Source: an uncultured Clostridium sp. (GTDB lineage Bacteria; Bacillota_I; Bacilli_A; Acholeplasmatales; Anaeroplasmataceae). From it: a stretch of DNA of 32,657 nt. A model generated the notes under the pieces. It did no database searches, was not told the origin of the DNA, and saw only the letters and a list, made by a program, of their open reading frames with translations. A program made the position numbers and the translations under genes. This document shows positions 6,276-32,318 of this stretch, piece after piece. The stretch is taken from contig CAMNGZ010000007.1 of assembly GCA_946538835.1 (NCBI GenBank), positions 1 to 32,657 on the forward strand, written 5' to 3'. Each line of letters begins with the position of its first letter. The first letter of the stretch is position 1.

Positions 6276-6471
6276 AAAAAATAAAATGCATCCTTACTTA
6301 AAGGACGCAATGCGTTATTCCACCTATTGTAAGAAGTATTCTTAACGCGAATATACGTCTTTTGCTAGAAGAACTCATCAGGTGCCTTCAAAAATAATTT
6401 AATCCAAAATTCTCATCATCATTTGGTCTCTTAAAATAAATTATAGTTTACTATCCTGAATCATAGAGATA
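6276..6471 (-). promoter_or_regulatory. T-box riboswitch upstream of cysE; specifier reads GGC
   Basis: On the minus strand the leader shows stem I with pairs UCAGG/CCUGA and AUAAUUUA/UAAAUUAU enclosing a specifier loop (AGUA on the 5' side, GAAGGCA on the 3' side). The T-box sequence AGGTGGAATAACGC is at 6312-6325. A terminator stem pairs 6287-6295 with 6301-6309, followed by a T-rich run (6276-6286). The UGGA bulge expects a tRNA ending UCCA, that is U73, which fits both tRNA-Cys and tRNA-Gly. The triplet in the codon position (6384-6386) is GGC, glycine. No UGC or UGU is present in the loop. The T-box call is strong; the amino acid sensed is uncertain. Confidence 0.88.
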
Positions 6472-6476
6472 TCTTC

Positions 6477-6504
6477 ATTATAATTTATTTAGGAATATTG
6501 TCAA
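6477..6504 (-). promoter_or_regulatory. cysE promoter
   Basis: A consensus TTGACA (6499-6504, minus strand), a 16-bp spacer and TATAAT (6477-6482). Its -35 box is 4 bp from the -35 of the divergent promoter. Confidence 0.8.
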
Positions 6505-11369: not shown

Positions 11370-13354
11370 TGGAAAACACTAATAAATTATTAGATGCAAA
11401 CGGTAATGAAGTTATTCTAACTGAAGATGATTTCAAGTTCGTTCAATCTGAAAAAAAAATTAAAGAGAAGAGTTTTGACACTAAGCCTACAACATTCTTT
11501 AAAGATGCATTAACTAGATTCGTTAAGTCGAAGAGTTCTGTTGTTGCAGCATTTATCATTGGTATTCTTATATTATTATCAATTATTGTTCCAGTTGCAT
11601 CTCCTTATAAATATAATGGCTCATTCTCTTATCAAGCCCTTTTGTCACCAAAGCTATTTGACAATGGTAATTTCTGGGCTGGAAAATATAAATATAAGAA
11701 TATTACATATAATCTTAATACAGGTTCTTATACTGCAGGTGAGGGTGCAAGTGCAATTACTTATGAATCTGATTATATGAACGATGTACAATTTTCATAT
11801 TCTAAGGTAAATAACCAATCAGATGCTGCTGTAGGTGGAATCTTTGTTGCTACTTCATCTACTAAGAGTTCTTCATCAAATAGAAGCGGTATTTATAATA
11901 AAATTCCATTCACAATTTCAAAATCTGATGATCTTGTATTACATCTAGACCTTGTTGAAGATGATGAAATTGCAAAGTCGATTGATACAGTATTAGCGGA
12001 ATACAGCATTGTTTTAAAATCTTCAACAACAGCTGATATTGTTTTAAAAGATGTGTCTAAAGATTATTCATCTCAAACTATCAATATTAGTGAAGTTTTA
12101 CAAAATAAGAATATTGATAAAGTTGAAAATGCTGAAGTAAGGGTATTATTAAAAACAAGCAAGACTGAATTTGTTTGTCTTCCTATTAAATCTTTATATT
12201 TCACAACTTCAAATGCAGAATTAAAAGCTAAGACTGATACTTATCAAATCAAAAATGACAAATTTGCAACTGAAGGTGTTATAAATTATAACAATGATAT
12301 GACTCAAGAAGAAATTGATGCATACATTGATTCTCTTAAAGATTATGGTGCAAGTGCCCAAGTAAATACTACTGCTAATATAGTCACATTAAGATCTACT
12401 AAGAATTTATATGATGCTGAATTTGCAAGCGCAAGTTTCTATTATGATGAATATGCTGCTAAGTTTGGCGCACAAGCACATGCGATTACTCAAACAGAAA
12501 TGCAAACTTATATTGACAATGGTTGGTGTAAATATACATTTGGTAACCCATCATCATTTGAAAAACTTTCTGAAAAGTGCCCAGTAAACGAAGTTTTAAG
12601 CGAAAAAGAAGTTGGTACTTCAGTAGAATTATCTGCTAATGTAACAATGTATCGCTATTATGGTTACAATTCAATGCCTCATTTCATTATGGGAACTGAT
12701 CAATATGGAAACCCTATGTTCTCATATGCATTCTTCGCTTTACAAACAAGTTTATTAATTGCAGTTATAATCTTTATTATCAACTTTACAATTGGTATTA
12801 TCTATGGTTCTGTTGAAGGTTACTTCGGTGGTAATGTAGACTTATTCATGGAACGTATTACTGATATTTTAGCTTACATTCCAGGTACAATTCTATTAAC
12901 ATTATTATTCTTAAATTTAGGTAGAACTATTAAAACATTCACATTAGCTATGTGTTTAACTGGTTGGATTGGTGTTGCTGGTGGTACTCGTACACAATTC
13001 TATCGTTTCAAGGGTAGAGAATATGTACTTGCATCTCGTACACTAGGTGCTTCAGATGCTCGTTTGATTTTTAAACACGTCTTACCAAATGCTATGGGTA
13101 CACTTATTACATCAACAGTATTAATGATTCCAGGAATTATTCGTTCAGAAGCCACTCTTGCTTATCTAGGTCTTGGTCTTAAAGGTACTGCATCATTTGG
13201 TGTAATCCTTTCTGAAAATCAAACATTATTGTCTTCTCGTGGTTACCTAGTAATCTTCCCAGACGTTATTCTTGCATTATTAATGATTACATTTAACCTA
13301 TTTGGTAATGGTCTTCGTGACGCATTTAACCCAACATTAAAAGGAAGTGAGTAG
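11369..13354 (+). CDS. oppC: Oligopeptide ABC transporter permease OppC with large ectodomain
   Basis: 661 aa, about twice the usual 300. Residues 1-55 are a charged cytoplasmic tail, and the first membrane segment is 57-77 (SSVVAAFIIGILILLSIIVPV). Residues from about 78 to 440 lie outside the membrane and have no domain that I recognise. They are rich in Ser, Thr, Asp, Tyr and Lys and beta-strand-like in pattern. The normal OppC core then starts with GTDQYGNPMFSYAFFALQTS (about 442), and the EAA loop is intact: REYVLASRTLGASDARLIFKHVLPNAMG. The core ends with DVILALLMITFNLFGNGLRDAFNP. The reading frame is uninterrupted and the codon use uniform, so this is a real insertion and not an assembly join. 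The ectodomain could help dock the oversized OppA (inference). Confidence 0.93.
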   Translation: MENTNKLLDANGNEVILTEDDFKFVQSEKKIKEKSFDTKPTTFFKDALTRFVKSKSSVVAAFIIGILILLSIIVPVASPYKYNGSFSYQALLSPKLFDNGNFWAGKYKYKNITYNLNTGSYTAGEGASAITYESDYMNDVQFSYSKVNNQSDAAVGGIFVATSSTKSSSSNRSGIYNKIPFTISKSDDLVLHLDLVEDDEIAKSIDTVLAEYSIVLKSSTTADIVLKDVSKDYSSQTINISEVLQNKNIDKVENAEVRVLLKTSKTEFVCLPIKSLYFTTSNAELKAKTDTYQIKNDKFATEGVINYNNDMTQEEIDAYIDSLKDYGASAQVNTTANIVTLRSTKNLYDAEFASASFYYDEYAAKFGAQAHAITQTEMQTYIDNGWCKYTFGNPSSFEKLSEKCPVNEVLSEKEVGTSVELSANVTMYRYYGYNSMPHFIMGTDQYGNPMFSYAFFALQTSLLIAVIIFIINFTIGIIYGSVEGYFGGNVDLFMERITDILAYIPGTILLTLLFLNLGRTIKTFTLAMCLTGWIGVAGGTRTQFYRFKGREYVLASRTLGASDARLIFKHVLPNAMGTLITSTVLMIPGIIRSEATLAYLGLGLKGTASFGVILSENQTLLSSRGYLVIFPDVILALLMITFNLFGNGLRDAFNPTLKGSE

Positions 13355-13355
13355 T

Positions 13356-15377
13356 ATGGCAGAAAAAGTACTTGAAGTTAAAGATTTAAGAGTTTCATTT
13401 AAAACTGATCATGGTATTGTTAAAGCCGTACGTGGAGTTTCCTTTGACCTTTATAAGGGTGAAACATTATGTATCGTAGGTGAATCTGGTTCTGGTAAAT
13501 CAGTTTCATCTAAGGCCATAATGGGTATTCTTGCTAATAATGCCATCGTTGAAAATGGTACTATTATGTATGAAGGTGAAAATTTACTTGAAGTTTCTGA
13601 AGAAGAATATGTAAATATTCGTGGTCATAAGATTGGTATGATTTTCCAAGACCCACTTTCAAGTTTAAACCCTATCATGCGTATTGGTAAACAAATTACT
13701 GAAGCAACTTTATTAAATGGTAATAAGCTTAAAAAGTTATATTTAGATTCAATCAATAATGAAAATGTAGCTTACAAGAATCTTGTTACATTTAAAAAAG
13801 TTAAAACTGAAAAGATTAAGACTAAATTAGCTGAAGATATCTTAACTATTCGTTCAGGTGAAAAGATTCAAGCTAATAAAGAAATCGCTAAACTTGAACA
13901 AAGATATGATGTTGAAGTTTATAACATCAAAGATAAGAGTGATTTTGATATATCTGACTTCAAAGATGACATTAAAGAAGCTAATACTGAATTAGTTAAA
14001 GCTAGAAATAGCGAAATTAATAAAATTAAGAAATCTCTTAAGGCTGAAAATCTAGTCACAGCTGAACAAGATGCTAATGCATTATCAGCTGCTGAACAAA
14101 AGATTGCAGAAATTAAAGCCAAATATGACGCTTTAATTGCAGAAAATAATAAGAAATATGCTGATTTTGCAGCAGAAAGACGTACTCAAAGAGATGCTGA
14201 ATTAGCTAAGGCTCGTGAAGCTTATCTTGCAAAAGTAAATGTTCAAAAAGAAATTATAAAGAAAAAAGCTACTCAAGAACAACTTGAAGAACAAAAGAAG
14301 CAAATTGAAGAATTAAAAGCTAAAGCTCAAAAAGAATTAGAAGCAGTTAATCTTGAATTTAATTCAAAGATGCCTGCTGCAAAAGCTAATTTAGTTGAGG
14401 CTAAGAAGAAAGCTAAGATTACTGTTCAAAATTATAAGCAAGAAGTTGAAAGAACTTATAATTCTGATAAGTCTGATGTTGATTCTAAGCATAAAGAAGT
14501 ATTAGCTGAACTTGAAACTAAATATGGTTCTCAAGTAGAATCTGCTAAAGAAGCTTTAGCAAATGCAGGCAAGAATAGCGCTGAATATAATTCATTAAAA
14601 GCGGCTTACGAAAAAGTAAACAGTGAATATAACGATAAGTTAAATGAAGAAAATAAGCGTTATAAGTCAGAAGTTACTCGTGTTAAGACTAAAAAAGTTG
14701 ATTCATTAAAGATTACTAAAGCTGAAGCTAAAAAGAGAGCTCTTGAAATAATGAAGGAAGTAGGTATTCCTTATCCTGAAAAGCGTTTCAATCAATATCC
14801 ATTTGAATTCTCAGGTGGTATGAGACAACGTATCGTTATTGCAATTGCATTAACTGCTAGCCCAGACATCTTAATTTGTGATGAACCTACTACAGCTCTT
14901 GACGTTACTATTCAAGCTCAAATTCTTGAACTAATTAATAAGTTAAAGAGAGAACGTAATTTATCAGTTATCTTTATTACACATGACCTTGGTGTTGTTG
15001 CTAACATGGCAGACAGAGTTGCCGTTATGTATGCTGGTAAGATTGTTGAATATGGTTTAGTAGAAGAAATCTTCTATAATCCAAAGCATCCATATACTTG
15101 GTCTTTATTATCTTCAATTCCAGATGTTGATTCTAAAGAAAAACTTGAAGCAATCCCAGGTACTCCACCAAATCTTGTTTACCCTCCTAAGGGTGATGCG
15201 TTCGCAGACAGATCTCGTTATGCGATGGAAATTGATTACAAGTATGAACCACCTTATTTCAAGGTTAGTGATACTCATTATGCAGCAACTTGGTTACTTG
15301 CACCAAATGCTCCAAAGGTTGAGATGCCAAAGATTGTAGCTCAACGTATTAAAAAATCATTAGAAGGAGGAAAATAA
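13356..15377 (+). CDS. oppD: Oligopeptide ABC transporter ATPase OppD with coiled-coil insertion
   Basis: 673 aa from ATG 13356; the RBS AGGAAGTGAG precedes it and the start lies just after the oppC stop. All ATPase motifs are present: Walker A GESGSGKS (42-49), Q-loop MIFQDPLSSLNP (Q98), signature FSGGMRQR (485-492), Walker B ILICDEPTTALD (D509-E510) and the H-loop ITHD (about 541). The C-terminal oligopeptide domain ends in GDAFADRSRYAMEID and SDTHYAATWLLAPNAPKV, as in the AmiE/OppD type of lactic acid bacteria. Between TLLNGNKLKK (127) and AEAKKRALEIMKEVGIP (456) are about 325 extra residues. They are rich in Lys, Glu, Ala and Gln, with heptad-like spacing, and probably form a long coiled coil on the helical subdomain. 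A normal OppD has about 340-360 aa and almost nothing at this place. Confidence 0.95.
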   Translation: MAEKVLEVKDLRVSFKTDHGIVKAVRGVSFDLYKGETLCIVGESGSGKSVSSKAIMGILANNAIVENGTIMYEGENLLEVSEEEYVNIRGHKIGMIFQDPLSSLNPIMRIGKQITEATLLNGNKLKKLYLDSINNENVAYKNLVTFKKVKTEKIKTKLAEDILTIRSGEKIQANKEIAKLEQRYDVEVYNIKDKSDFDISDFKDDIKEANTELVKARNSEINKIKKSLKAENLVTAEQDANALSAAEQKIAEIKAKYDALIAENNKKYADFAAERRTQRDAELAKAREAYLAKVNVQKEIIKKKATQEQLEEQKKQIEELKAKAQKELEAVNLEFNSKMPAAKANLVEAKKKAKITVQNYKQEVERTYNSDKSDVDSKHKEVLAELETKYGSQVESAKEALANAGKNSAEYNSLKAAYEKVNSEYNDKLNEENKRYKSEVTRVKTKKVDSLKITKAEAKKRALEIMKEVGIPYPEKRFNQYPFEFSGGMRQRIVIAIALTASPDILICDEPTTALDVTIQAQILELINKLKRERNLSVIFITHDLGVVANMADRVAVMYAGKIVEYGLVEEIFYNPKHPYTWSLLSSIPDVDSKEKLEAIPGTPPNLVYPPKGDAFADRSRYAMEIDYKYEPPYFKVSDTHYAATWLLAPNAPKVEMPKIVAQRIKKSLEGGK

Positions 15378-31853: not shown

Positions 31854-32318
31854 TTGAATATTATGAATAAATATATGTTTCTTGCGATAGAAGAAGCCAC
31901 TAATGGTATTGAAGCAGGAGATGGAGGTCCTTTTGGTTGCGTAATAGTTAAGAATGATGAAATTGTAGGTAGAGGTCACAATAGAGTCGTTCTTAAAAAA
32001 GATCCAACTTGTCATGGAGAAATGGAAGCTATTAGAGATGCTTGTAAAAAACTTGGTACATTTGATTTGTCTGGTTGTACTTTATATACTACTGGTGAAC
32101 CATGTCCAATGTGCTTTGGAGCTATTCTATGGGCTAACATTGAAAAGGTTTATTATGGTTGCAATGTAGTTGACACTGATAAGATTGGATTTAGGGATGA
32201 TATTTTCTATCACATGACTGCAGAAAAGAAAGCAATCTTCCAAACTGAGTTAGATAGAGAAGAATGCTTAAAACTTTATGAGAAGTATATGGCAATAGAA
32301 AATAAAACAAATTACTAA
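31854..32318 (+). CDS. Cytidine/guanine deaminase family protein (GuaD-like)
   Basis: 154-aa zinc-dependent deaminase. The zinc ligands are His54 (CHGE, with proton-shuttling Glu56) and Cys84/Cys87 (GEPCPMC). GGPFGCVIVKNDEIVGRGHN and the ends IGFRDDIFYHM and FQTELDREECL resemble Bacillus guanine deaminase more than the tRNA adenosine deaminase TadA; the latter would normally have CHAEI and a different C-terminal helix. It probably deaminates guanine to xanthine, but the substrate is inferred. In the usual HAE motif, Ala is Gly here. The start is either TTG 31854 (better RBS spacing) or ATG 31863 (151 aa). It is monocistronic. Confidence 0.88.
   Translation: MNIMNKYMFLAIEEATNGIEAGDGGPFGCVIVKNDEIVGRGHNRVVLKKDPTCHGEMEAIRDACKKLGTFDLSGCTLYTTGEPCPMCFGAILWANIEKVYYGCNVVDTDKIGFRDDIFYHMTAEKKAIFQTELDREECLKLYEKYMAIENKTNY

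Follow-up and report, generated by a model that had tools for sequence, protein, structure and literature searches.

Which amino acid is sensed by the leader RNA that precedes the serine O-acetyltransferase gene cysE? T-box specifiers serve to predict the amino acid of the downstream gene, and it is a known rule that Cys T-boxes precede cysE and cysK (PMC2940859). The leader described here lies in a window of 32,657 nucleotides (the whole stretch of DNA analyzed), and our best reading is that it represents a genus-restricted T-box variant, with its amino-acid identity swapped relative to the gene.

A T-box leader ahead of cysE

The window corresponds to contig C7 of a genome that is 63% complete (960 kb in 72 contigs). 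Judged by cysE, its nearest named relatives are an Acholeplasmatales MAG (isolate Tb.RUG.207) and, more distantly, an Anaeroplasmataceae MAG. The gene is identified by its product, scoring 219.3 bits against TIGR01172 (serine O-acetyltransferase), above the cut-off of 210.65, matching EpsC NF041874 as well, and resembling solved serine acetyltransferases down to 4e-39. On the TIGR01172 basis, the gene under the leader is a cysteine gene and not a glycine-related one. The gene is monocistronic; it converges with tyrS, from which a bidirectional terminator separates it. Elsewhere in the window, an OppD-like ATPase (13347-15377, 676 aa) was seen by eye to carry a Lys/Glu-rich insert of ~270 residues between the Q-loop and the signature motif. 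A deaminase at 31854-32318 had TadA as its top NCBIfam match, at 84.5 bits and below the cut-off of 150, and is possibly a guanine deaminase instead.

Table 1. Predicted features of the cysE locus (window coordinates)
Feature	Position	Strand	Basis
cysE, serine O-acetyltransferase, 173 aa	5740..6261	minus	TIGR01172, EpsC NF041874, solved enzymes
T-box leader RNA	~6476-6287	minus	RF00230 match 6473..6298; dedicated two-species covariance model (R1)
Sigma-70-type promoter TTGACA-16-TATAAT	6477..6504	minus	consensus match 12/12
Helix below specifier loop, 5' strand UCAGG	6455..6459	minus	congener UUAGG; compensatory C-G to U-A
Helix below specifier loop, 3' strand CCUGA	6378..6382	minus	congener CCUAA
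Specifier-loop 5' strand AUAGUA (AGUA motif)	6449..6454	minus	same in both species
Predicted specifier triplet GGC (Gly)	6384..6386	minus	between GAA 6389-6387 and A 6383
T-box UGGA, predicted partner a tRNA ending U73-CCA	6319..6322	minus	sequence read and genus tRNAs
Antiterminator AGG/CCU + ACGC/GCGU, bulge UGGAAUA	6302..6325	minus	identical in two species
Intrinsic terminator UGCGUCCUUUAAGUAAGGAUGCA then U-run	6287..6309	minus	9-pair stem, -12.3 kcal/mol

Both halves of a T-box were found in the leader (Table 1). The specifier loop of Stem I is bounded by two helices, a long A-U helix above and UCAGG/CCUGA below, and its strands carry AGUA and GAA. The AGG/ACGC antiterminator with its UGGA bulge overlaps the terminator ahead of cysE. 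Against RF00230 the leader scored 63.7 bits (E = 1.1e-13 in 401 bases, 6e-14 genome-wide), which falls below the curated gathering cut-off of 93 bits; it was absent from the Rfam gathering-threshold search and was recovered by an E-value search. The score is lowered by the bulge UGGAAUA (6322-6316), where AUA replaces the ACC of the consensus UGGNACC in both species that have the leader, a replacement that may weaken the switch.

The second of these species is a congener (G001, independent assembly, protein 80% identical), in which the same leader occupies the same place, with a promoter TTGACT/TATAAT at the same position. Between the window genome (G000) and G001, all 39 proposed pairs are preserved. 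Nine of them, all in Stem I, are compensatory on both sides; one of the nine lies in the helix beneath the specifier (C-G to U-A) and six lie in the helix over it. This pair covariation was reached by none of 500 shuffles and was lost on sliding partners, although this last control is biased towards the structure, since both sequences had contributed in part to its derivation. While 33 of the 82 Stem I columns differ and 49 are unchanged, the 13 specifier-loop bases are all unchanged (hypergeometric 6e-4, for two sequences only and with columns assumed independent), as are the paired antiterminator bases. On sequence comparison, the nine compensatory pairs and the unchanged loop imply selection on both structure and loop. 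A third congener (G002) has cysE and no leader (best match 4.8 bits with filters off).

The specifier triplet

The codon was taken as the triplet ending one base before the lower helix, a helix-anchored frame (triplet, one base, helix) that is the first-choice rule of TBDB (PMC7778990). In this frame, the cysE leader holds GGC and then A (GGC-A-CCUGA; GGC-A-CCUAA in the congener) on a 3' loop strand that reads GAAGGCA. The first-pass annotation had placed GGC in the codon position between helices on both sides, in a loop strand free of UGC and UGU, and both points were borne out: neither cysteine codon occurs in the specifier loop in any frame or in either species, and GGC is kept in the related genome despite nine compensatory changes around it.

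The frame was calibrated on other leaders. A scripted helix-anchored reading of synthetase leaders in the same genome returned the expected Val, Phe, Ile, Thr and Ala codons, and the reading of transporter leaders returned Met (metNI-like) and Arg CGU (an amino-acid transporter with an inferred substrate). By eye, the trpS leader reads UGG-G, and the frame also fits sister-genus trpS (UGG) and the Anaerotignum cysE leader (GAAG-UGC-G, L134). The exception is tyrS, which had been offered as the internal control; it does read UAC, but with a two-base spacer before its UUAU helix, where Rfam needs an insertion. A better control is the pheS leader of the same genome (GAA-UUC-A-CUUUC), the layout of which matches that of cysE exactly.

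The gap-free RF00230 alignment is shifted by one base and puts GCA (Ala) into the specifier columns, so that this covariance alignment, proposed earlier as a check, likewise has neither UGC nor UGU there. Among the tRNAs retrieved from three genus genomes (a set lacking those for Ala, Ile and Met), U73 is confined to tRNA-Gly and tRNA-Cys, in agreement with the previous remark that UGGA suits the U73 of both. Of the loop triplets GAA, AAG, AGG, GGC and GCA, only GGC (Gly) is compatible with U73. Since UGGA needs U73 and the loop then fits Gly only, GGC was chosen over GCA, a choice that also follows from counting the extra G-C as paired. A predicted specifier of GGC, with no reading that gives cysteine, is well supported, and the placement of a putative non-Cys specifier ahead of cysE is supported. 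GGC makes up 38 of the 584 glycine codons in the window genes; T-box specifiers generally favour C-ending codons (PMC7778990), with which the cysE GGC is in line.

Candidate tRNAs and competing readings

In the genus, the only tRNA-Gly anticodons found were ACC and UCC. The three genus genomes, which are 63-75% complete, yielded no tRNA-Gly(GCC), which is likely to be truly absent from the genus. The ACC gene is the counterpart (81%) of a GCC gene in sister genus g3, and is present in one copy in G000 (C23:15438-15512), two in G001 (C28) and three in G002 (C7) (L191, L180, L185). In the ACC tRNA-Gly of the window genome, C33 replaces U33. Because the candidates (Gly ACC or UCC, Cys GCA) all end in U73-CCA, the anticodon is the main discriminator. 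With the genus tRNA-Gly, the first two positions of GGC pair and the C of position 3 faces A34, I34 or U34; against tRNA-Cys(GCA), positions 2 and 3 pair and position 1 faces A36.

A position-3 C would thus have to be tolerated opposite A34, I34 or U34, and we infer that it is. A natural third-position mismatch is known from alaS of C. acetobutylicum, where GCU meets a UGC anticodon (PMC4695836), and an arginine-type leader in G001 has CGC while the tRNA-Arg is ACG, setting the specifier C opposite a genomic A34, with inosine expected. This arginine-type transporter leader has CGU in G000 and CGC in G001 (L002, L151), and tRNA-Arg(ACG) is present in both.

The cysE leader is probably a transcription-attenuating T-box with the glycine specifier GGC that senses tRNA-Gly, and tRNA-Gly would be its physiological ligand. 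An uncharged tRNA-Gly (ACC/ICC or UCC isoacceptor) would be read at GGC and its U73-CCA end at UGGA; once bound, it would stabilize the antiterminator over the terminator, and RNA polymerase would proceed into cysE. A shortage of glycine would then raise cysE transcription. Induction of cysE by uncharged tRNA-Gly, as claimed in the first-pass annotation, is accordingly retained as the most likely reading given GGC and U73, with the qualification that only ACC and UCC tRNA-Gly were found and that tRNA-Cys also pairs at two of three positions. Several points speak against a glycine reading, namely that cysE makes a cysteine precursor, that a GCC partner is missing, that Rfam aligns GCA, that the bulge has AUA, that only two sequences carry the leader and that the third congener has no leader.

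More tentatively, and somewhat short of an even chance, this may be a natural T-box that has switched identity, so that a shortage of glycine (tRNA-Gly) gates cysteine synthesis, in a genus whose tRNA-Gly would have exchanged a GCC for an ACC anticodon and would have to be read with inosine or a non-Watson-Crick contact at the third position. Such control would create the tie of cysteine synthesis to glycine, and so to serine, that the first-pass annotation put forward. Serine would be consumed by an acetyltransferase switched on when glycine runs short, and the two amino acids are interconverted by SHMT, but we found no adaptive rationale for the arrangement.

The main rival, which we regard as possible though unlikely, is that the leader still senses tRNA-Cys through a G.A mismatch at position 1 (GGC against the GCA anticodon), so that regulation would be ordinary. 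Such a ligand is what the function of cysE leads one to expect, tRNA-Cys(GCA) has the U73 that fits UGGA, and the perfect glycine partner was not found in the genus; moreover, a Cys-type loop GAAGUGCA (GAAG-UGC-A, where the Anaerotignum leader has GAAG-UGC-G) might have turned into GAAGGCA by losing one U. However, UGC is near-universal in reported Cys T-boxes (PMC7778990; PMC2940859), the codon-anticodon contact of T-boxes is described as consisting of three Watson-Crick pairs (PMC7583486), the documented natural mismatch sits at position 3 and not 1 (PMC4695836), and GGC has been retained in two species though a single base would restore UGC. A pairing between U33 and the base that follows the specifier would favour tRNA-Cys; this idea was dropped, as the literature ascribes the conservation of that base to stacking (PMC7583486). 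Taken together, we judge tRNA-Gly to be rather likelier than tRNA-Cys as the ligand.

It is improbable that the leader is a decaying T-box that has ceased to sense tRNA and acts as a fixed terminator or a weak constitutive leader. Its score below the gathering cut-off, AUA in place of ACC and the leaderless third congener would suit such decay, but not the nine compensatory pairs or the specifier loop and paired antiterminator bases that are unchanged between the two species. Least probable is an alanine specifier. tRNA-Ala carries A73, with which UGGA is mismatched, and the genome's own alaS leader combines GCU with UGGU. The GCA of the gap-free RF00230 alignment, obtained when the G-C pair is counted within the loop (consensus size 7/8), would also place after the codon a C that pairs with G, at a position usually held by a purine (PMC7583486), and would explain cysE no better.

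Distribution and comparison with known T-boxes

A covariance model built from both leaders (R1) scored 200.6 and 198.3 bits on its own two species, and an R1 search of 160 Acholeplasmatales genomes and 395 sampled Bacilli found no third copy, the best score on any other genome of the order being 73 bits and the Bacilli sample giving none higher. The next R1 matches inspected were ordinary leaders of the pheS, serS, alaS, valS, trpS and aspS types, many of them laid out as GAA-XXX-A. By a strict pattern search, which could miss divergent cores, the order has few UGGA cores; no Gly or Cys T-box ancestor was found among the UGGA-core matches inspected, the sole other T-box there being a CAC leader with an amino-acid ABC transporter downstream. 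Present in two congeners and found elsewhere in neither the order nor the class sample, the cysE leader therefore looks like a genus-level acquisition. A single base change from UGC to GGC, as suggested in the first-pass annotation, is possible, and the one-U deletion would also give GAAGGCA, but the R1 and strict UGGA-core searches found no Cys-type T-box in the order that could have been the source.

cysK of the genus had no T-box match, and the incomplete window genome yielded no cysK. In sister genera, cysE follows either trpS, which has a Trp T-box, or cysK. The Trp T-box and trpS stand directly upstream of cysE in L014 (G052; 160-358) and L015 (G030; 266-462), and cysE in those sister genera may be co-transcribed under tryptophan control. 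Other acetyltransferase genes also neighbour T-boxes, with a GNAT-type gene between T-box and valS in the genus (L001, L139, L140) and a GNAT-like gene directly after Asp-type (GAC) T-boxes in other genera (L211, L214, L219).

If true, a conserved disagreement between codon and gene would mean that the prediction rule can fail, or that regulation has been rewired across pathways; the cysE leader is in addition a small, synthesizable test of mismatch tolerance in T-boxes. Among its closest counterparts are the Cys T-boxes before cysE or cysK-cysE (Clostridium perfringens cysK-cysE, Anaerotignum L134), which are likewise attenuators ahead of serine acetyltransferase with UGGA for U73. Those have UGC and the canonical ACC bulge, whereas the leader here has GGC and AUA. 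With the genome's own pheS T-box (L006) it shares the short loop GAA-XXX-A-helix, although that leader has UUC and UGGU and is cognate to its gene. The Gly T-box of B. subtilis glyQS and its relatives similarly has a GGC specifier followed by A, UGGA and a U73 tRNA, but controls glycyl-tRNA synthetase, in contrast to the serine acetyltransferase downstream here. In addition, glyQS leaders are without Stem II and IIA/B (PMC4695836), whereas the cysE leader contains a CGCGUUA F-box-like element.
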